A DNA stretch of 64,000 nucleotides from Actinomycetes bacterium (lineage in GTDB: Bacteria > Actinomycetota > Acidimicrobiia > Acidimicrobiales > RAAP-2): positions 1 through 64,000 of the forward strand of contig JAKBGV010000002.1 in the NCBI GenBank assembly GCA_021837305.1, given 5' to 3'. This document shows, piece after piece, positions 7,860 to 24,496 of the stretch. A program made the translations under genes and the position numbers. Each line of letters opens with the position of its first letter. Position 1 is the stretch's first letter. Below the pieces are notes generated by a model. That model had not been told where the DNA came from. It ran no database searches and saw only the letters and a program-made list of their open reading frames with translations.

Positions 7860-8246
7860 TCATGCATCGGGAGGCAGGACTACGACGGGGCCGATGCGCA
7901 TCGTTCGGTCCGCCGACTTGCACATGTCGTAGATGGTCAGCGTCGCCGCCGTGACGGCGCTCAGTGCGCGCATGCGTGCCGATGCCTCGCTCGCGCTCCT
8001 AACGCTCGTGGTCACCTCGATGTGATCCTCGCTGACGATGAACTCGACGACGACGTGGCTCACCGGCTCGGGGTCGAGCAATGGCAGGTAGCTCGAGGCG
8101 TCCTTCGCGGCCTGCAACCCGGCGAAACGGGCGGCCCCGAGGACGTCGCCCTTCTTGATGCCGTGGCTCGCCACGGCGCGCGCGGTCTCTGGGCGCATGG
8201 TGATTCGAGCGCGGGCAGCACCGTGAGTGGGCTCGTGCTCGGTCAT
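7860..8246 (-). CDS. MoaC-like protein A (partial active site)
   Basis: MoaC converts 3',8-cyclo-7,8-dihydro-GTP into cyclic pyranopterin monophosphate in molybdenum cofactor synthesis. This 128-aa protein aligns without gaps to MoaC over ITMRPETARAVASHGIKKGD (E. coli K51 region), AARFAGLQAAK and LTIYDMCKSADRTMRIGP (D128 and K131). It has lost other conserved parts: the N-terminal MVDVS segment, the CHP motif (here LLDP, so H77 becomes D), the GVEMEA motif (here SARMRA, so E112 and E114 become R) and the C-terminal KSGGKS. The residues kept are those missing from the second MoaC-like protein at 15642. Start: ATG 8246; a TTG (8330) or GTG further upstream is possible, and the SD is weak. Residue numbers follow E. 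coli MoaC from memory. Confidence 0.8.
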   Translation of the reverse strand: MTEHEPTHGAARARITMRPETARAVASHGIKKGDVLGAARFAGLQAAKDASSYLPLLDPEPVSHVVVEFIVSEDHIEVTTSVRSASEASARMRALSAVTAATLTIYDMCKSADRTMRIGPVVVLPPDA

Positions 8247-8350
8247 GGCCAGGTCCGTCGGATAACAGTCGGGGTGTCTAGCGTCATGGCAACTCCAAGT
8301 AAACCGCACTCCTGCCGGGCATCTCGCCAACCCGCGTCTACGCTCGAGAC

Positions 8351-8872
8351 GTGACGTTGCGCGCGAAGGTCTTGACCGTCTCGGACTCGGCGAGCGCGGG
8401 GGAGCGTGTCGATGGCGCGGGCCCGGCCGTGGTGGGCCGACTCATCGAAGCAGATTACGAGATCGTCGAACAACGGCTCGTGTCCGACGGCGTCGAGGTG
8501 GTGGCGTCGGCACTGCGCGAACTTGCCGTGGGGTTCGCTGGGCTCATCGTGACGACCGGTGGGACCGGGTTCGCGCCCCGAGACCTCACCCCCGAGGCCA
8601 CCGCGTCGGTGATCGAACGTGAGGCTCCCGGCTTCGCGGAAGTGATGCGCGCCACCAGCCCCTTCGGTGCCCTCTCGAGAGGTCGCTGCGGTATCCTTGG
8701 TGAAAGTCTGATCCTCAATACGCCGGGCTCTCCCCGGGCCGCGCTCGAGTGTCTCGAAGCCGTAGCGCCGTTGCTTTCTCATGCGTTGCGACTTCTAGTG
8801 GGCACGAGTGACCCTCATCCGCCAGAGATCGGCGGGACGACGGCGATCTCGTCGATGGGTCCAACGTCTTGA
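8351..8872 (+). CDS. MoaB/Mog family molybdopterin adenylyltransferase
   Basis: A 173-aa protein of the MoaB/MogA fold, which adenylylates molybdopterin before metal insertion by MoeA. It carries the diagnostic LIVTTGGTGFAPRDLTPEAT and the later LNTPGSPRAALECLEAV. Starts at GTG 8351, 104 bp from the divergent MoaC-like gene. The last 58 bp overlap the 3' end of moaD on the other strand, so the tail PEIGGTTAISSMGPTS is encoded antisense to the MoaD C-terminus. In actinobacteria this single-domain protein serves as the Mog-type adenylyltransferase working with MoeA. Confidence 0.9.
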   Translation: MTLRAKVLTVSDSASAGERVDGAGPAVVGRLIEADYEIVEQRLVSDGVEVVASALRELAVGFAGLIVTTGGTGFAPRDLTPEATASVIEREAPGFAEVMRATSPFGALSRGRCGILGESLILNTPGSPRAALECLEAVAPLLSHALRLLVGTSDPHPPEIGGTTAISSMGPTS

Positions 8873-9051
8873 CCTGGTGAGGCCTCCACACCGTTGACCC
8901 AGACTCGACTGATTGCGACGATTTCGGCGAACGGCTTGCCGAACCGAAGGGTCGCCAGAGCGATCACCTCGTCCACCGTCGCGGCGTCGATCTCGGCGCT
9001 GCGCACCCCGGCCGCCTCGCGGGCCGGTCCGAGTAGCAAGAGCCGACTCAC
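8815..9051 (-). CDS. moaD: MoaD, molybdopterin synthase sulfur carrier subunit
   Basis: A 78-aa beta-grasp sulfur carrier that ends in PPISGG; the terminal Gly-Gly is adenylylated and thiocarboxylated to deliver sulfur to MoaE. The N-terminus is VSRLLLLGPAREAAGV (the family has LLFGPLRERLG-like residues), followed by VWVNGVEASPGQDVGPIDEIAVVPP. GTG 9051 overlaps the moaE stop by 4 bp (GTGA), which supports this start over the long track ORF and indicates translational coupling in a moaE-moaD operon. Its 3' end overlaps the convergent mog gene. Confidence 0.9.
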   Translation of the reverse strand: MSRLLLLGPAREAAGVRSAEIDAATVDEVIALATLRFGKPFAEIVAISRVWVNGVEASPGQDVGPIDEIAVVPPISGG

Positions 9052-9518
9052 GGGGCGAGGTCGCCCACGTCGACGATGTCCTCGGTCTGCTCGCTCCAGG
9101 CCGATCCACCTTGCCAGACCTCGCGTTTCCACATGGGGACCGTGTGCTTGACGGCGTCGATGCAGAACTGGGCGGCCTCGAAGGCTTCGCGTCGATGAGG
9201 CGATGAGACCGCGACTACGACCGCGGGTTCACGCACGAGGACCGTACCGATTCGGTGATGGACGGCGATGGCGCGAACCTCGGGCCAGCGTTCACGCGCG
9301 CGCGCCGTCACGGCGCGTATCCGTGATTCGGCGAGGTCGACGTCAGTCTCGTAGTCGAGTTCGATGATCTCGTGCTCGAAGGTCGACGTGGTGCGGGCGG
9401 TGCCACAGAACGTAACGACCGCACCGCAGTCGCGACGGGTGGCCCACGCCACCAGCTCGTCGGGCGCCAACGGCTGGGCCGAGACCGCCACCCACTCGCT
9501 CGCGCCGTCCATCGTCAC
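9048..9518 (-). CDS. moaE: MoaE, molybdopterin synthase catalytic subunit
   Basis: A 156-aa protein that, with MoaD, inserts two sulfurs into cyclic pyranopterin monophosphate. Family signatures visible: GAVVTFCGTAR, VHHRIGTVLVREPAVVVAV, SSPHRREAFEAAQFCIDAVK and VPMWKREVWQGG. The two catalytic lysines correspond to the K in AVKHTVP and in MWKRE. The GTG at 9518 is used by the track; ATG 9512 is an equally good start. It is the upstream gene of the moaE-moaD operon and is divergent from modA. Confidence 0.93.
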   Translation of the reverse strand: MTMDGASEWVAVSAQPLAPDELVAWATRRDCGAVVTFCGTARTTSTFEHEIIELDYETDVDLAESRIRAVTARARERWPEVRAIAVHHRIGTVLVREPAVVVAVSSPHRREAFEAAQFCIDAVKHTVPMWKREVWQGGSAWSEQTEDIVDVGDLAP

Positions 9519-9698: not shown

Positions 9699-10592
9699 AT
9701 GAGCAACGTGGGGACCGTTTCGCGACTCGGTGGACGCCGGATACTCGTGCTCGGGGTCCTTAGCGCGTTACTGCTCGCCACAGGCAATCTGGTCAGCGCC
9801 TCGCGTGCGTCGGGAGCGACGGCTCGCTCGGTGGACGTGTTGTACGCGGGATCGCTGCTCAATCTCATGGAGAACCAGATCGGGCCGGCGTTCCACCGTG
9901 CGACCGGTGACAACGTCGTTGGGATCGCCAACGGGTCGACCGCACTCGCCACCGAGATCAAGGGTGGCACCGAGGTCGCCGACGTCTTCGTCAGTGCATC
10001 GCCGAGTGTCAATCGCGTCCTCGAAGGGCCCGCGAACGGCGACTGGGTCTCGTCGTACCGGGTACTCGGTCAGTCGCCCCTCGTGCTCGGCTACAACCCG
10101 GACTCGAGCTTCGCGGCGGCGTTGCGCTCCTCGCCCTGGTACGACGTCGTGGCACGCCCGGGCTTCCTGCTCGGGCGGACCGATCCGGCGGTCGATCCCA
10201 AGGGCGTCCTCGCGGTGACGGCGTTGCGCGAGGCCGCACGTCGCTACCACCGCCCCCGTCTGGCTGCACTGGCGACCTCGACGAGCGACGTCTTCACCGA
10301 GGCGTCCCTCGTCGGTGAACTCGACGCCGGCCAGCTCGACGCCGGCTTCTTCTACACCGTGGAGGCAACCGCCGCCCACTTGCATACCGTCGCACTCGTC
10401 GGCACGCACCTCGCGGCCACCTTCACGGTGGCCATCGTCAATCGGGCCCCGCACTCGAGGGCCGCCCGTGCGTTCGTCGCGTTCCTTTTCGGTCCACGGG
10501 GACGTGCCATCCTGTCGCGCAACGGTGTCATCCCGCCGGGGTCGACACGAGTGGGGGACGTCGTGTCGTCACCGCCCACGACCAGACCGTGA
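9699..10592 (+). CDS. Molybdate/tungstate ABC transporter substrate-binding protein
   Basis: A 297-aa extracytoplasmic solute-binding protein. ATG 9699 has SD GAGGGGGG; the N-terminus GRRILVLGVLSALLLATG is a signal sequence. The mature part begins VDVLYAGSLLNLMENQIGPA and includes NGSTALATEIKGGTEVADVF and FLLGRTDPAVDPKG. These features are closer to the WtpA/TupA (tungstate-type ModA) branch than to E. coli ModA, so either oxyanion may be bound. It overlaps the next gene by 4 bp (GTGA). A TAGTAT hexamer at 9641-9646 is a possible -10 element. Confidence 0.88.
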   Translation: MSNVGTVSRLGGRRILVLGVLSALLLATGNLVSASRASGATARSVDVLYAGSLLNLMENQIGPAFHRATGDNVVGIANGSTALATEIKGGTEVADVFVSASPSVNRVLEGPANGDWVSSYRVLGQSPLVLGYNPDSSFAAALRSSPWYDVVARPGFLLGRTDPAVDPKGVLAVTALREAARRYHRPRLAALATSTSDVFTEASLVGELDAGQLDAGFFYTVEATAAHLHTVALVGTHLAATFTVAIVNRAPHSRAARAFVAFLFGPRGRAILSRNGVIPPGSTRVGDVVSSPPTTRP

Positions 10593-12430
10593 GTGCCCAG
10601 CGCAGCGCCGGTCCACTGCGCTGGCTCGCCGGACTCGTCGTGCTGTACCTCGCGGCGCCAATTGTCGCCTTCGTGGTTCGACTCGTTACCTCGCCGCGTC
10701 GGGGCTTCCACCAGGCGGGGCTCTATCCGGCGCTGTGGACGTCGTTGAGCGGCGCGACTATCTCGCTCGTACTCGTCACGGTCTTCGGCGTGCCACTCGC
10801 CTTCGTGCTCGCTCGCTCGAAGAGCCGGGTGGCCGCCGTCATCGGGATCGTCGTCCAGATTCCCCTCGCGTTACCGCCGCTCATGAGCGGGATCGTGCTC
10901 ATCTACCTGGTCGGTCCCTACACGTTCCTCGGGCGTCTGTTCCATCGCCAGCTCACCAATTCGTCCACTGGCCTGGTAATCGCCATGACCTTCGTGTCAG
11001 CGCCCTTTCTCGTCGTCGCCGCACGCGCCGCATTCGAGTCGCTCGACCCGAACCTGCTCGACGTCGCCGAGACGCTGGGTCACGGTGAACTCTCACGGTT
11101 CCTGCGCGTGGCGGTGCCGGTCGCCGCACCGGGCATCCGAGCGGGCATGGTGCTCGCGTGGCTGCGGGCCTTCGGTGAGTACGGAGCCGTGATTGTGCTG
11201 GCCTATAACCCCACCTCGTTGCCGATCTACACCTATAACCAGTTCAGCGGCGCGGGCCTGTCGCCGACACTCGCGCCCACGGCACTAGCGCTCGTGGTGG
11301 CGTTGGTGGTCGCCGCACTCAGTCGGTTCCACTGGCCACGGGCGCGACAAATTCCCGAAGGCGACGTTCGCGCGCCCGCGGTGGTCAGGTCCGGGCCGAT
11401 CCGCTTCAAGGTCGATCATCAACTGGGGTCGTTCCACCTGCGTCTGCGCTGCGAACGCCCGGTGCATCACCTGGCGGTCCTCGGACCATCCGGGGCGGGC
11501 AAATCAGCGCTGCTGCGCAGTTTGGCCGGGCTTGCTGGGCCCCACGCGGCGCAACTCTGGTGTGGCGACGAATCCATCGGGGAGCAACCTGTCGTGCGGC
11601 GTCGGGTCGGCTACGTCGCCCAAGGATTCTCGCTCTTTCCCCACCTCACCGTCTGGCAGCAGTTGAACTTCGCCCGCGGCGCACAGGCCGATATCGCACG
11701 GTACTGGCTTCATCGACTGGGCCTCGACGGACTGGAGTTTGCCCGACCGGACCAGCTGTCGGGTGGCCAACGCCAACGCGTCGCCCTGGCCCAAGTGCTG
11801 TGCTCCGAACCAGTGGTCCTTCTCTTGGATGAACCGTTCTCGGCCCTCGATGTACCGGTACGACACGAACTTCGTCGTCTCGTGCGCGAGCTCCAGCGTG
11901 AGACGGGCCTTTCGACGGTGCTTGTGACCCACGACCCCGAAGAGGCGGGGTTCCTCTCTGAGGACGTGCTGGTGGTGAGTGCCGGGGCGGCGCTGCAGTT
12001 CGGCGCCAGTCGCGAGGTCTTCACGCACCCTGCGTCACCGGCGGTGGCTCGACTGCTCGGTATAACGAACCTGTTGACCGGTCGGGTCGTCGCGTCGGGG
12101 ATCGAGTGCGGAACGGTCACCATCGACGTGCCGGTCGACGGACTCGCAATGGGTGATGCGGTGTCCTGGAGCGTTCGCCCCGAGCGGGTGACGCTGACCG
12201 CACTGGGTGACGCGAACGCAGTGGCGACGCTCCCTGGCACCATCCGAGACATCGCCTACGTCGGCGTGGCGAGTGACTTCGTCGTGGAGGTCGCGGGCGG
12301 GTTCGAGATCCTCGTGCGCAGCGCGGACTGGTTGGAGTGGTCGGTCGGGGACGTCTGTGGGCTCGTCGTGCGCGCCGAGGACGTCTCGTTGTGGCCGCGC
12401 GGCGACCTCGATGTCGCTCGTCGACCCTGA
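10589..12430 (+). CDS. Fused ModB-ModC molybdate ABC permease/ATPase
   Basis: One 613-aa protein joins the two remaining transporter parts. Residues about 1-245 are a ModB/CysT-type permease with some six helices and the EAA loop (ESLDPNLLDVAETLGHGELSRF). Residues about 265-490 are an ABC ATPase: Walker A GPSGAGKS, signature LSGGQRQR, Walker B VVLLLDEP and the switch His in VLVTHDPEE. Residues about 505-605 form a C-terminal TOBE-like domain. Starts at GTG 10589, coupled to the binding-protein gene. Two copies of the fused protein would make the full transporter, since both domains normally occur as dimers. Confidence 0.93.
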   Translation: MSAQRSAGPLRWLAGLVVLYLAAPIVAFVVRLVTSPRRGFHQAGLYPALWTSLSGATISLVLVTVFGVPLAFVLARSKSRVAAVIGIVVQIPLALPPLMSGIVLIYLVGPYTFLGRLFHRQLTNSSTGLVIAMTFVSAPFLVVAARAAFESLDPNLLDVAETLGHGELSRFLRVAVPVAAPGIRAGMVLAWLRAFGEYGAVIVLAYNPTSLPIYTYNQFSGAGLSPTLAPTALALVVALVVAALSRFHWPRARQIPEGDVRAPAVVRSGPIRFKVDHQLGSFHLRLRCERPVHHLAVLGPSGAGKSALLRSLAGLAGPHAAQLWCGDESIGEQPVVRRRVGYVAQGFSLFPHLTVWQQLNFARGAQADIARYWLHRLGLDGLEFARPDQLSGGQRQRVALAQVLCSEPVVLLLDEPFSALDVPVRHELRRLVRELQRETGLSTVLVTHDPEEAGFLSEDVLVVSAGAALQFGASREVFTHPASPAVARLLGITNLLTGRVVASGIECGTVTIDVPVDGLAMGDAVSWSVRPERVTLTALGDANAVATLPGTIRDIAYVGVASDFVVEVAGGFEILVRSADWLEWSVGDVCGLVVRAEDVSLWPRGDLDVARRP

Positions 12431-12896: not shown

Positions 12897-13193
12897 TCAG
12901 CCACCCGCCATGGCGCCGATGACGAAGAAGACCTCACGGCCGGTCTCGACGTCACGGGGCAACGGCTCGTCCGGCGTGGCGTGTGAGAGGTCCTGCTCGC
13001 ACGCGAAGAAGCGGATGAAGGGTCGACGCCGCTGGGTGGCGGGGTCGCGGATCGTGCCCACCAAGACGGGGTAGCGGGCTTCGAGCGCGTCGAGCACCGT
13101 CCGTTGGCAGACGGGACCGGTCACCTCGAGCTCAACCTCACCGGAGACGTGGGTGAGGGTTTTCAGGTGGGCTGGCAGGACGACACGGATCAT
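12897..13193 (-). CDS. MoaD/ThiS-like ubiquitin-fold protein ending in Gly-Gly
   Basis: A 98-aa beta-grasp protein: [26 protein letters not shown] at the N-terminus, [12 protein letters not shown] in the helix and [10 protein letters not shown] at the C-terminus. The free Gly-Gly end is the site of adenylation and thiocarboxylation in MoaD and ThiS. ATG 13193 overlaps the stop of the upstream BNR-repeat gene by 4 bp (ATGA), so the track start at 13403 is wrong and the two genes are coupled. A true moaD exists at 8815, so this one probably serves another sulfur-transfer or modifier role; function not established. Confidence 0.8.
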
Positions 13194-14305
13194 GCCAGCG
13201 TCTGTACTTCGACTGACAGCACCGCGGGCAGGTCGTGCACGATCGCGTCCCACGTGTCCCCGCCGTTCGCGGAGGCGTAGACCTGACCGCCGGTGGTGCC
13301 GAAGTAGATGCCGCAGTCCTCGAGGGTGTCCACGGCCATCGCGTCGCGCAGGACGTTCACGTAACAGTCGCGCTGGGGCAGTCCCGCGGTCAGTGGCTCC
13401 CACTCATTGCCACCGGTACGACTGCGGTAGACGCGCAGTCGACCATCGAGGGGGAAGTGCACGGAGTCGCTCGTGATTGGCACGACGTAGATGGTCTCGG
13501 GTTCGTGGGCGTGTACGTCGATCACGAAGCCAAAGTCGGTGGGCAGATCACCGCTCACCTCAAACCATGAGTCACCCGCGTCGTTGCTGCGCATGATGTC
13601 CCAATGCTTCTGCATGTACAGCACGTCGGGACGCGACGGGTGCATGGTGACGTGGTGTACGCAGTGGCCGACCTCGGCGTCGGCGTCGGCGATGCCCTCG
13701 GAGTTGAGACCCCGGTTGATCGGTTTCCAGGTCGCGCCACCGTCGTCGGTGCGAAATGCACCCGCGGCCGAGATCGCCACCACAATCCGAGCGGGGTTAA
13801 CCGGGCTTTGGATGATCGTGTGCAGACACATCCCACCCGCGCCGGGCTGCCACTGTGAGCCCGTCTCGTGCGTGCGCAGTCCCGCGAGTTCGTGCCAGCT
13901 CGCCCCGGCGTCGGTCGTGCGGAAGAGTGCGGCGTCTTCGACACCGGCGAACACCGTGTCGGGATCGGTGAGTGATGGCTCGAGGTGCCAGACGCGGGCG
14001 AACTCCCAGGGATGAGCCGTGCCGTCGTACCACTGGTGGGTGCCCGGCACGCCGTCGTAGGCGAACTGGTTGCCGACCGGCTCCCAGGTCGCGCCGCCGT
14101 CATCCGAGCGCTGGATCAGCTGGCCGAACCAGCCCGTCGACTGAGACGCGAAGATTCGGTTGGGATCGAGCGGCGACCCCTTCAAGTGATAGACCTCCCA
14201 CCCCGCGAAGAGCGGCCCCTCGACGTGCCAGTCCTTGCGCGAACCGTCCGCGGTGAGTATAAAGGCCCCTTTTCGGGTACCGACTAAGATACGCACGCTG
14301 CTCAT
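13190..14305 (-). CDS. BNR/YCF48-type beta-propeller repeat protein
   Basis: A 371-aa protein built of repeated sialidase-type Asp-box blades: [60 protein letters not shown] and [12 protein letters not shown]. The spacing of about 50-60 residues suggests a propeller of six or seven blades. There is no signal peptide, so it seems cytoplasmic, and no sialidase catalytic residues are evident. ATG 14305 has SD GAGGGGG. It is translationally coupled to the following MoaD-like gene; this pairing implies a joint function that is not known to me. Confidence 0.85.
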
Positions 14306-14372
14306 GGACACCCCCTCAACTGCCGAGAACCGCTTGCGTGGCTCACAGTAGCGTGGTCGCCTGAGAGCCCTT

Positions 14373-15509
14373 TCAGCCACCGATCATCGACATCGAGCGG
14401 TGCGGGCGCAGGAATCCCGGTTCGTTGATGGCGTGACCCGGGTACTTGGCCCACACGGCGCGGCGCAGTACGAGCTCGACCTCGGCGTCGTCGCAGCCAC
14501 CTCGCAACAGTTCGCGCAACGCATGCTCGTCATCACCGAAGAGACAGTTACGAATCGAGCCGTCGGGCGTGAGCCGTAGTCGATTGCACGTGCCACAGAA
14601 GGGCTCGGTCACCGTTGAGATGAGCCCGATCTCGCCGACGCCGTCAGCGAAACGGAAGCGTTCGGCCGGTGCGACCCGACCCGGCTCATCAACGGCTTCG
14701 AGTGGCCAGGCGGCGTTCAGCACGTCGTACACCTCGCGTCCCGGCACGATCCGATCGCGGTCCCAATCACCGGGCGCGTCAAGGGGCATGAACTCGATGA
14801 AGCGCACGATGCGACCGGTCGTTCGCGCGAAGCGTGCGAAGTCGAGGATCTCGTCGTCGTTGATGCCACGAAGGAGCACCACGTTCACCTTGAGCGGTGC
14901 GAGCCCGGCCGCCTCGGCGACCTCCATGGCGTCGAGCACGGTCGCGAGGTCACCGCGACGCCGGATGGAGGCGAAGCGGTCGGCTCGAAGCGAGTCACAG
15001 CTGATGTTCACGCGGGTGAGCCCAGCGGCCTTCAAGGGTGCCGCGAGTGGCGCGAGTCGCGTGGCGTTGGTGGTCATGGCGATGTCCGCGAACCCGACGG
15101 CGCTGAGCCGAGCGATGAGGTCGACGACACCTCGGCGCACGAGCGGCTCTCCGCCCGTGAGTCGGATGGCGGTGACGCCGAGGTCGTGTGCGATCCGCGC
15201 GATTCGCTCGAGTTCCTCGAAGCTGAGCAGCTGTTCACGAGGCTGGAATGTCATGTCCTCGTCCATACAGTAAGTGCAGCGCAGGTTGCAACGGTCGGTG
15301 ATCGAGATGCGTAGGTCGCTGTGAACCCGACCGTATTGATCGACGAGGCCCCCCGTTGTCGGCATGTACGCCGGGGAACGCCCGTCGTCAGCGTTGGTGT
15401 AGTGAGCCTTGACCGAAAGGGCGACGGGCGTCGACCTCGCCCGGGACCCCGCGACGTCGATGGCACCGTGCGCACTCGCGCTTCGAGCAGCAGCCTCGTG
15501 GTCGCTCAT
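14373..15509 (-). CDS. moaA: MoaA, GTP 3',8-cyclase
   Basis: A radical-SAM enzyme catalysing the first step of molybdenum cofactor synthesis. The N-terminal cluster motif is [11 protein letters not shown] (CxxxCxxC), the second [4Fe-4S] site is [14 protein letters not shown] with a third Cys in IRNCLFG, and the protein ends in SMSMIGG, the conserved Gly-Gly tail that enters the active site. [10 protein letters not shown] is the GGEP motif. The 378-aa form from ATG 15509 has about 50 extra N-terminal residues; ATG 15365 ([14 protein letters not shown]) would give the usual length of 330. It is divergent from the MoaC-like gene at 15642. Confidence 0.95.
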
Positions 15510-15641: not shown

Positions 15642-16136
15642 ATGGTGACGCCCTTCACGCATCTCGATGACGAAGGGCGCCTTCGCATGGTGGACGTCTC
15701 GGACAAGGAGACGACGCGACGCCGCGCCGACGCGAGCTGTGTCGTACGTTCGGTCGTTGACGTGTTTGCCCTCGACGTGACCGCGCAAGGGCTCGATCCG
15801 GTCTTCGCCGCGCGACTCACCGGCATCCAGGCGGCGAAGCGTACGGCACAGTTGATCCCGCTCTGCCACCCGATCAACCTCACCGATGTCGAGGTGAACA
15901 TCACGGCTCATGAGGGTGGTCTCGTCGTTCGTTCGACGGTCGTGACGGTAAATCGCACGGGGGTGGAGATGGAGGCGTTGACGGCGTGCGCCTTCGCGGC
16001 GATGAGCCTGGTCGACGCGCTCGCGTCACTCGATCCAACGGCGCACGTCGACGAGCTCGTGCTCGATCGAAAGAGCGGCGGCAAATCAGATGATTGGGGA
16101 CGCCTCGTTGCGCCGGAGGCGAGTCCTGAAACCTGA
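15642..16136 (+). CDS. MoaC-like protein B (partial active site)
   Basis: A 164-aa MoaC homologue with a good SD (GGAGGTATCG) before ATG 15642. It has the N-terminal MVDVSDKETTRR (R26 kept), TGIQAAKRTAQLIPLCHP (K67, C76, H77), NRTGVEMEALTA (E112, E114) and the C-terminal DRKSGGKSDDW (K147). The catalytic lysine of the KGD motif is replaced (QGLDP, K51 to G), and YDMCK has become LVDALA (D128 kept, K131 to A). Both missing lysines are present in the paralogue at 7860. On its own it would be predicted inactive or altered. TACCAT at 15593-15598 is a possible -10 box. Numbering follows E. coli MoaC from memory. Confidence 0.9.
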   Translation: MVTPFTHLDDEGRLRMVDVSDKETTRRRADASCVVRSVVDVFALDVTAQGLDPVFAARLTGIQAAKRTAQLIPLCHPINLTDVEVNITAHEGGLVVRSTVVTVNRTGVEMEALTACAFAAMSLVDALASLDPTAHVDELVLDRKSGGKSDDWGRLVAPEASPET

Positions 16137-17618: not shown

Positions 17619-18857
17619 TTACGCGACCACGTTGAGCCCGCGGTCGTCGAGCAGCAGGGCGCGCACCGTCTCACCGGCGCGGTAGCCGGCGCCGTCGGGC
17701 GCCACGATGAGGCAGTTGGCACCCGCGACGGCGAAGAGTAGGTGCGAGCCTCGCCGGGCGAGTCGTTCGACGTGCACGAGTCCGTCGTCGCCGATGCGAC
17801 AGACGCCGTGAACGAGGTGGAGCTTCCCGTCGGGCCGGCGATCGAGGTCGTCGTCGAGCACCATCGACAGGATCGGCCGGTCGAGGTCCCGATGGCCCGC
17901 GAGGTGGCGCAACGCCGGACGCACGAAGAGTTCGAAGCCGACCAGGGTCGAGACGGGATTACCGGCTAGGCCGAAGAAGGGGGTGTTGGTCGACTCGTCG
18001 TAGGCGAACGTGAAGGGTTTGCCCGGGCGGATCGCGACCTGCATGGACCGCGCGCGTTCGAGGAACAACTCAGCGAGGACGACCTTCACGAAGTCGGCGT
18101 CGCCCGCACTCACGCCGCCCGTTGAGATCACGGCGTCACACGTCGTGCGTGCGTGCTCGAAGGCCGTGCGCAGGTCGTCTCTCGAATCGCGCACCGTACC
18201 GAGATCGATCGCCGCGAATCCTGACTGGCGTAGCGCGGCGAGCAACGTGGGTCGATTCGAGTCGCGGATCTGACCCGGACCGAGGCGACCCGCCCCTTCG
18301 ACGAGCTCGTTGCCCGTGGAGAGCACGCCCACGCGCGGTACGGGGTGTACGAGAAGTGAGGCGACTCCCTGGGCGGCGAGGGCACCGAGCAGGGCGGGGT
18401 CCACGACGTCGCCGGGACTGACGAGTGTCTGGCCGACGGACAGGTCCTCGCCGACTTGTCGCACGCAGTCGCCGGACACGACGGCCCGTTGCAGGGTCAC
18501 GAAGTGTCCGTCCTCGTCGACCACGGCGTCCTCGCGGGGACAGACCGTGTCGGCCCCGGGCGGCAGGGGTGCGCCGGTCATGATCCGGGTGGCCTCGCCG
18601 ACACCGACGACGACCGCACTCGACTCACCGGCGAAGACCGAATCGACGATGCGAAGGCGCGTCGGGCCCGTTGTCGCGTCGGAACCACGCACCGCGAAGC
18701 CGTCCATCGCTGAGTTGGTGAAACTCGGGGCGGGCTCGGTCGCGTACACGGTGCACGCCGCCACGAGGTCGATGGTCTCGGCGAGCGCACACTCGAGCGG
18801 CGCGAGGGGGCGTAGCGGCGCCAGGACGAAGGAACGGGCCTCCTCGGCCGCGATCAT
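17619..18857 (-). CDS. moeA: MoeA, molybdopterin molybdotransferase
   Basis: A 412-aa enzyme that inserts molybdate into adenylylated molybdopterin. Visible signatures: TNSAMDGFAVRG in domain 1, RIMTGAPLPPGADTV, ISTGGVSAGDADFVK (the TGGxSxGxxD loop of the MoeA/Mog domain), RPGKPFTFA and LAGNPVSTLVGFELFVRP. Length is normal. It is convergent with the cytochrome b gene, 12 bp apart, and divergent from the formate dehydrogenase-like gene. It should work with the MoaB/Mog protein at 8351. Confidence 0.95.
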   Translation of the reverse strand: MIAAEEARSFVLAPLRPLAPLECALAETIDLVAACTVYATEPAPSFTNSAMDGFAVRGSDATTGPTRLRIVDSVFAGESSAVVVGVGEATRIMTGAPLPPGADTVCPREDAVVDEDGHFVTLQRAVVSGDCVRQVGEDLSVGQTLVSPGDVVDPALLGALAAQGVASLLVHPVPRVGVLSTGNELVEGAGRLGPGQIRDSNRPTLLAALRQSGFAAIDLGTVRDSRDDLRTAFEHARTTCDAVISTGGVSAGDADFVKVVLAELFLERARSMQVAIRPGKPFTFAYDESTNTPFFGLAGNPVSTLVGFELFVRPALRHLAGHRDLDRPILSMVLDDDLDRRPDGKLHLVHGVCRIGDDGLVHVERLARRGSHLLFAVAGANCLIVAPDGAGYRAGETVRALLLDDRGLNVVA

Positions 18858-22561: not shown

Positions 22562-23158
22562 CTACCGGCCGGTATCGGTGAGGCCGTAGCGCACGAGGTC
22601 TTCGGGCGTGTCGACATCGGCGAACGTGCGAGACGAGGCGACGTGGCGCCAGGCTGACTCGCCGAGCAGGGTCACGTCGTCACCGTCGGTGACGTGGTGC
22701 AGTGAGCGTTCACCGGATTCGTAGCGTCGCTGCGCCTCATCGAGGTCGCGAACCCCCCACCGGGCGAGCAGTGGCTGGGCGCGGCCGTCGACGACGGGCA
22801 TGACCGTACCCGAGGCGTCGTACTCGGCGAGGAAGGTGAGTAGCGACTCGTCGACGAACGGCAGGTCGCAGGCGATGACGAGGGCCGCACCGCGATGGCC
22901 GTTCGCTCGCAGCAGTCGGTTCCCGGCGACGATCGCGGCGAGGGGACCGGCGCCGACGGGGTCCTCACGCGTCGCGACGAGTCCTGAGTGACCAGGTCCA
23001 ACCTCGTAGGCACGCGTGACCACCCGCGCGAGCAGCGCGGCGTTGCGGCGCGCGAGTGTCGTGCCGTCGATGACGATGCGCGACTTGTCGCGTCCCATGC
23101 GCCGACTCGCGCCTCCGGTGAGCAAGAGCGCCGCGACCTGCGTGGATGGTGTCGCCAC
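22562..23158 (-). CDS. mobA: MobA, molybdenum cofactor guanylyltransferase
   Basis: A 198-aa nucleotidyltransferase that attaches GMP to Mo-molybdopterin, giving the dinucleotide cofactor needed by DMSO-reductase-family enzymes such as the FdhF/YdeP protein nearby. Motifs: AALLLTGGASRRMGRDKSRI (LxGGxSxRMGxDK), VGAGPLAAIVAG, VIACDLPFVD (CDxP) and FADVDTPEDL (D-N/D-TP). The track ORF of 449 aa reads through upstream non-coding DNA; GTG 23158 (VATPSTQVAALLLTGG) is the sensible start. Confidence 0.92.
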   Translation of the reverse strand: MATPSTQVAALLLTGGASRRMGRDKSRIVIDGTTLARRNAALLARVVTRAYEVGPGHSGLVATREDPVGAGPLAAIVAGNRLLRANGHRGAALVIACDLPFVDESLLTFLAEYDASGTVMPVVDGRAQPLLARWGVRDLDEAQRRYESGERSLHHVTDGDDVTLLGESAWRHVASSRTFADVDTPEDLVRYGLTDTGR

Positions 23159-23299
23159 GTTGTCAGCGTACAAAGGGCGACGAGTGGGCGTTTCACTCGT
23201 GTTGCGGCTGGGTTGCGGATGCGGGTACACGCGACGTGACCCCATGGCCGGCTCGTTCGCATCGACCACGAACAGTGGATAGCGTCGAGGACGACTCTT

Positions 23300-24496
23300 A
23301 TGAACCACGTGCGCCCCTTGTCCGGTCTCAGCTTGGAGCAGTTGCAACAGCGAACGAGTGAGAAGTGGCGCCACTATCCCTCGGACGTCTTGCCCCTTTG
23401 GGTCGCCGAGATGGACGTGGCGCTGGCCGAGCCCGTCGAACGGGCCCTGGTCGACGCCGTTCGTCACGGCGACCTGGGTTACCCGATCGCTGACCGGTAC
23501 GTGGCGTCGCTCTCCTCCTTCGCCGTGCGCCACTGGGGCTGGACGGGGATCGACCCTTCGCGTTCCCGGCCGGTTGCGAACGTCATGAGCGGGGTCGCGG
23601 CAGCGATCAGCGTGCTGAGCGAGCCAGGTGACTGCATCGTGGTCAACTGCCCTGTCTATCCACCCTTCTTCTCGTTCACCGAGCACAGCGGCCGCGTCGT
23701 GGAAGAGGCCCCACTCGGCGCGGATGGGCACCTCGACTTCGCGCTCCTCGAGGGTGCCTTCGAGCGGGCGAGCACGAAGTCCCGACGCCCCGTCTATCTG
23801 CTCTGCAGCCCGCACAACCCAACGGGCACGGTGCATTCGCGCGACGAGCTGGTGCACGTGCTTAACCTGGCGGACCGATACGGGATGCGCGTGATTTCCG
23901 ATGAGATTCACGCGCCGCTCGTGCTACGCGGTGCGTTCACGCCGCTACTGAGCCTCGCCGGCGCTGAGCGACACGTCGCGGTGCTCTCGGGATCCAAGGC
24001 GTTCAACCTCGCCGGCGCGCCCGCCGCCGTCCTCGTCGTCGGCACCGACGGTACTGACGTGATCGAGGCTCTGGAGCAGCGAGTGGTACCCGGACCCAGC
24101 CACCTGGGCGTAATCGCCCAGAGCGCGGCATTCGACGAGACCGACGCGTGGCTTGAGGACTTGCTCGTCGACTTGCGTGCGCGTCAGACGCTCCTCGTCG
24201 ATCTCGTGGCCGACCACCTGCCGGTGGCCCGCTACCGGCCCGGCGATGCCACGTATCTCGCCTGGCTTGACGTGGGCGGTCTCGGCCTGCCCCAGGGCGG
24301 CGAGAGGTCGCGAGGACAGATGACAAGCATCACGGGGCCGGCCGCATACTTTCTTGAGCACGCGCGCGTCGCGTTGAGCGACGGCGCTGCCTTCGGCACC
24401 GGTGGAGTGGACCATGTGCGACTCAATTTCGCGACGACTGAGGCCATCTTGCGCGAAGGACTCGAACGCCTGGGTGGGCACTGGCCACGCGCGTGA
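23300..24496 (+). CDS. PatB/MalY-type PLP-dependent aminotransferase/C-S lyase
   Basis: A 398-aa class I/II aminotransferase-fold enzyme of the MalY/PatB branch, whose members cleave cystathionine or other C-S bonds. It begins with RTSEKWRHYPSDVLPLWVAEMDV, a hallmark of that branch. The PLP lysine is in VLSGSKAFNLAG, with CSPHNPTGTVHSRDEL and VISDEIHAPLVL as the Asn and Asp contacts, and the carboxylate-binding Arg in VRLNFATTEAIL. Monocistronic, starting at ATG 23300. Possible roles are methionine/cysteine metabolism or sulfur supply to the neighbouring cofactor pathway; the latter is inference. Confidence 0.9.
   Translation: MNHVRPLSGLSLEQLQQRTSEKWRHYPSDVLPLWVAEMDVALAEPVERALVDAVRHGDLGYPIADRYVASLSSFAVRHWGWTGIDPSRSRPVANVMSGVAAAISVLSEPGDCIVVNCPVYPPFFSFTEHSGRVVEEAPLGADGHLDFALLEGAFERASTKSRRPVYLLCSPHNPTGTVHSRDELVHVLNLADRYGMRVISDEIHAPLVLRGAFTPLLSLAGAERHVAVLSGSKAFNLAGAPAAVLVVGTDGTDVIEALEQRVVPGPSHLGVIAQSAAFDETDAWLEDLLVDLRARQTLLVDLVADHLPVARYRPGDATYLAWLDVGGLGLPQGGERSRGQMTSITGPAAYFLEHARVALSDGAAFGTGGVDHVRLNFATTEAILREGLERLGGHWPRA

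Follow-up and report, generated by a model that had tools for sequence, protein, structure and literature searches.

A MoaC relative without catalytic lysines and its complementary paralogue: candidate subunits of a split-site cPMP synthase in Acidimicrobiales

A genome is usually taken either to have MoaC, as a homo-oligomer, or to lack it, and the molybdenum-cofactor (Moco) cluster in the window (the whole 64,000-nucleotide stretch of Acidimicrobiales DNA that was analysed) raises the question of what a MoaC relative lacking both catalytic lysines may be doing there. This relative, named B, and the two codons concerned are located as follows:

15642..16136, forward strand: protein B, MoaC relative without K51 and K131, the putative beta subunit with the His77/Glu112/Glu114 half-site (Pfam, alignments, fold, Foldseek)
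15789..15791, forward strand: GGG codon encoding Gly50 of B, which aligns with Lys51 of E. coli MoaC
16023..16025, forward strand: GCG codon encoding Ala128 of B, which aligns with Lys131 of E. coli MoaC

The B open reading frame starts with ATG, has GGAGG upstream of the start and encodes 164 amino acids. Its top HMMER match among solved MoaCs was 4fdf (8e-32), its predicted structure (pLDDT 92.4) had the MoaC fold, and the best Foldseek matches of this model in the PDB were all MoaC (TM 0.64-0.84 by query length). The first-pass annotation had reported that both catalytic lysines are absent and had proposed an alignment with solved MoaCs; the alignments with E. coli MoaC and with the solved proteins bore this out, agreeing that Lys51 is replaced by Gly50 and Lys131 by Ala128. 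Rescue by lysines at neighbouring positions was also considered, and no substitute was present within 10 residues of Gly50 or Ala128 in either loop of the alignment. Retained in B were K22, R27, H76, E109, E111, D125 and K144-SGG, corresponding to K21, R26, H77, E112, E114, D128 and K147-SGG of E. coli. K51 and K131 of E. coli are considered essential for cPMP formation, and the title of PDB entry 4pya describes K51A MoaC with bound 3',8-cH2GTP. A self-sufficient cPMP synthase would hold both lysines in one chain, and B, judged by its sequence, should be inactive on its own.

It had further been claimed that any profile search would call B moaC. This held for Pfam MoaC (PF01967), matched across the full profile with 115.2 bits (cut-off 27), but not for NCBIfam, where B scored 138.8 against TIGR00581, under the equivalog cut-off of 141.5, and fell just short with PRK09364 (149.6, cut-off 162). 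The warning that automatic annotation would mask the inactivity expected of B alone was well founded.

Two further MoaC relatives, A and C, were found by a motif scan and a genome search. A is encoded in the same window, adjoining mogA, moaD and moaE, and the cluster comprises these features:

7860..8246, reverse strand: protein A, MoaC relative, the putative alpha subunit with the half holding the lysines and Asp128 (motif scan, profile, alignment)
7917..7919, reverse strand: Lys110 of A, equivalent to E. coli Lys131 (alignment)
8151..8153, reverse strand: Lys32 of A, equivalent to E. coli Lys51 (alignment)
8351..8872, forward strand: mogA/moaB-like gene, divergent from A (TIGR00177, 96.5 bits)
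8815..9132, reverse strand: moaD-like small subunit, ThiS family (PF02597, 27 bits)
9048..9518, reverse strand: moaE, molybdopterin synthase large subunit (PF02391, 115.5 bits)
14373..15509, reverse strand: moaA, canonical GTP 3',8-cyclase, divergent from B (TIGR02666, 363.4 bits, cut-off 284)
17619..18857, reverse strand: moeA (Pfam and NCBIfam profile matches)
22562..23911, reverse strand: mobA-like gene (profile match in the C-terminal region)

The KGDV and YDMCK motifs, with both lysines and Asp128, are intact in A. Altered are LCHP, which reads LLDP, and GVEMEAL, which reads SARMRAL; Asp58, Arg91 and Arg93 stand at the places of His77, Glu112 and Glu114, and both termini are missing, with MVDVS absent at the N-terminus and KSGG at the C-terminus. 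The reading frame is open to a TTG at 8330, and the ATG at 8246 is the likely start, judging from the relatives and from a longer version that was disordered before this ATG, with low model confidence. A scored 106.9 bits with PF01967 (cut-off 27) and 106.3 with TIGR00581, below its cut-off of 141.5, and its predicted fold (pLDDT 87.8) has the core elements in the same order as B.

The losses in the two proteins were compared over 48 positions conserved in at least 95% of 55 reference MoaCs. The B-type set comprised 51 sequences from 14 genera of the source's Acidimicrobiales family, all without K51 and nearly all without K131: K51, G52, Y127 and M129 were each kept in 0/51, K131 in 4/51 and D128 in 8/51, while K21, R26, H77, T109, G110, E112 and E114 were kept in all 51. 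The ten A-type sequences all kept K51, G52, D53, Y127, D128, M129 and K131, and none had H77 or E112. Six of the 48 positions (K51, G52, Y127, D128, M129 and K131) were gone in B and present in A, 20 were gone in A and present in B, including K21, R26, H77, E112, E114 and K147, and none was lost in both. The chance of zero overlap under independent loss is about 0.03, modest alone and not extreme. A and B thus jointly hold all the conserved residues, divided by side of the active site. Because the 51 B-type relatives show the same pattern, the lysine loss in B is not due to chance or sequencing error; a binning error was likewise rejected, with about 50 relatives sharing the losses and one genome (G099) carrying A, B and C on one 116-kb contig. 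Median dN/dS was 0.32 for A, 0.31 for B, 0.20 for C and 0.12 for canonical copies, indicating purifying selection on A and B.

It is very improbable that A and B are copies in decay without a function, or artefacts of assembly. The genomes are MAGs, and one B-type copy (G101:C70) has an in-frame TAG, but almost every genome with MoaA has a full-length B, dN/dS is well below 1, the key residues are invariant, both folds are confident, and the G099 contig holds all three genes.

The division of residues can be placed on the known site. When M. tuberculosis MoaC2 is superposed on T. thermophilus MoaC with GTP bound, Lys62, Asp137 and Lys140 of chain A and His88 of chain B hold the nucleotide (PMC3602415). 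Counting residues, these correspond to K51, D128, K131 and H77 of E. coli. Glu112/Glu114 and Asp128/Lys131 mark the two ends of a single helix of 19 residues (109-127 in the B model, pLDDT 92.4), about 28 Å long at 1.5 Å per residue. The equivalent helix sits at the dimer interface in MoaC (PMC3602415), and therefore its two ends in one chain should serve different sites. Together with N- and C-terminal residues, Glu112 and Glu114 would side with His77, an assignment that for the glutamates follows from the helix geometry and the shared loss pattern.

On this evidence and the linkage to Moco genes described below, A and B are probably partner subunits of one heteromeric cPMP synthase whose active site is divided between them. 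Each MoaC site spans the dimer interface. A would supply Lys51, Asp128 and Lys131 to an A:B dimer, and B would supply His77, Glu112, Glu114, Lys21, Arg26 and the KSGG loop. Such a dimer would have one complete site, while the second, with neither half, would be dead; A alone or B alone would form no complete site. A would be expected to bind B, and the complex to make cPMP. In relatives without A, B would draw the lysine half from a C-type or canonical MoaC. In the open literature searched, no account of a MoaC that is heteromeric or split was found.

The third copy, C (contig C90, L144:6910-7401), has K51, H77, E112, E114, D128 and K131, lacks MVDVS/Lys21, and lies in a tldD-pmbA-C-WYL-regulator neighbourhood with no link to Moco genes. 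As a point against the split-site reading, this copy in the source genome has all the catalytic residues and could make cPMP alone. Linkage and distribution were surveyed in 120 genomes of the source's family. MoaA was present in 61 and MoaE in 61. Among the 61 MoaA genomes, 54 had at least two MoaCs, five had only the B type, and two had none (G016, and G077 with 59% completeness). A lysine-deficient MoaC (K51 and/or K131 lost) occurred in 59 of the 61, that is, in all those having any MoaC. Counting against the split-site reading, K131 is retained in four B-type sequences and K51 in G107:C84. The five B-only genomes also weigh against it, but they are MAGs, 84-93% complete, whose assemblies may simply lack the partner gene. 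None of the 59 MoaA-less genomes had more than one MoaC, and 43 had one of C/canonical type, again next to tldD-pmbA and a WYL regulator (L145-L153 among the loci), with both lysines in all those whose residues were read in a fetched subset (e.g. G009, G010, G018, G028, G040, G054, G075, G095 and G119) and the class assigned by score outside it. Genes within 20 kb of moaA or moaE were 45/62 for B, 11/13 for A/alpha and 0/51 for C/canonical.

These numbers bear on the alternative in which C is the real cPMP synthase, an ordinary homo-oligomer, and A and B are pseudoenzymes that regulate, scaffold or pass substrate from MoaA. Its complete residue set suits C for this role, and dead paralogues that activate enzymes are known (PMC5201418 and PMC3663545), but no C/canonical gene is near moaA or moaE, the type is kept in 43 genomes without MoaA, and regulation leaves the exactly complementary half-site losses of A and B unexplained; we consider it unlikely. 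The simpler proposal that a third MoaC just does the job is weakened by the same Moco-independent distribution. There is about an even chance that a MoaC duplication freed C for a Moco-independent role, retained next to tldD-pmbA where MoaA and MoaE are absent, and left the Moco task to an obligate heteromer (A:B or C-like:B) with one shared site per dimer.

A further alternative is that A and B, or B by itself, act on a different substrate in a newly acquired reaction, for example in a tungsten- or single-molybdoenzyme-specific branch. The cluster transporter matches tungstate as well as molybdate families, and B is without the lysines needed for cPMP formation; against this, B tracks MoaA and MoaE genome by genome, the MoaA is canonical, and the residues retained are those of the cPMP synthase site and no new set, making this reading quite improbable. 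Returning to the split-site heteromer, the pathway defect implied by the first-pass annotation is probably not real, because the cluster encodes A with the missing half-site, C in the same genome has the catalytic residues, and B is kept with MoaA.

The A type was found in 10 genomes, each also carrying B; against the split-site reading, most B-bearing genomes of the family are without A. Two genomes speak for it. In G046, A and B were the only MoaCs found; in G038, B accompanies a lysine-bearing partner without His77, and no canonical copy was found. His77 loss alone is no proof of a B partner, because the C-type genes of two MoaA-less genomes (G010 and G054) have lost it too. Genomes from the rest of the order and class generally carry a single ordinary MoaC, with B-like extras in families f28 and f35, and no B-type copies were seen outside Acidimicrobiales in the sample of the class. 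A genome of family f28 (G310; L201, L211) has an independent-looking complementary pair, one copy with both lysines and His77 changed to Arg, the other lysine-less with His77.

In the tree, B and the forms with a single lysine loss stood apart from C/canonical, and the A type fell on the C/canonical side, although this was a quick tree with long branches and its details are unsure. Four Moco-cluster MoaCs (L154, L155, L159 and L161, from G004, G067, G024 and G044) have lost K51 and kept K131; they are sister to the B clade and a possible intermediate. Loss of K51 only was also seen in family f28. A plausible history would be a duplication after which the Moco-linked copy lost K51 and later K131; in the source's genus, a C-like copy may then have entered the Moco cluster and lost the half supplied by B, giving A. 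The Moco-cluster C-like copies of G101 and G107 have intact catalytic residues.

Characterised MoaCs (PF01967, TIGR00581; E. coli 1ekr/4pya/4pyd, T. thermophilus 3jqm, M. tuberculosis MoaC2 4fdf) share the fold, the dimer-spanning site and the moaA/moaE linkage with the proteins described here, but they are homo-oligomers with both halves in every chain, whereas here the halves are split over two genes, A and B jointly having every catalytic residue. M. tuberculosis likewise has several MoaC genes in one actinobacterium (MoaC1, MoaC2 and MoaC3), but its MoaC2 keeps all catalytic residues and no complementary loss is reported (PMC3602415). A parallel to the proposed pair is offered by trypanosomatid deoxyhypusine synthase and AdoMet decarboxylase (PMC3663545, PMC5201418), which function only as heteromers of two diverged paralogues of which one is dead, although these enzymes are eukaryotic and unrelated to MoaC. 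A role of C outside the pathway would be paralleled by Glp, a MoeA of actinobacteria that now serves in cell division (PMC11733289, PMC10522489), which differs in being a MoeA and not a MoaC.

If the split-site reading is true, A and B would form a naturally occurring dimer in which a single site works, revealing which chain gives which residue, and a clean bacterial case of active-site subfunctionalisation. Profile annotation may then give the name cPMP synthase to B, a half without activity of its own, or to C, a copy independent of Moco. Retention of C in genomes without MoaA poses the question of what job MoaC does without the enzyme that makes its substrate.

Some additional features of the window and the survey were recorded. 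No RNA element such as a Moco riboswitch was matched in Rfam within positions 5000-26000. A 613-aa ORF (10589-12430) is a fused permease and ATPase of a molybdate/tungstate transporter, and the binding protein ahead of it matches tungstate WtpA better than ModA. Inside the Moco cluster, 12897-14380 encodes a glycosylhydrolase-like (BNR-type) protein, beside which a small ORF has a MoaD/ThiS-like look and no Pfam or NCBIfam match. The B-type copy with the in-frame TAG (L124:3868-4314) is a second one in G101, where an intact B occurs as well, next to a C-like copy (L123). A locus publicly labelled Acidobacteriota (L011) appears to belong to the source's Acidimicrobiales genus, and two labelled Bifidobacterium breve (L060, L077) carry an Acidimicrobiales-like MoaC; all three labels look wrong.
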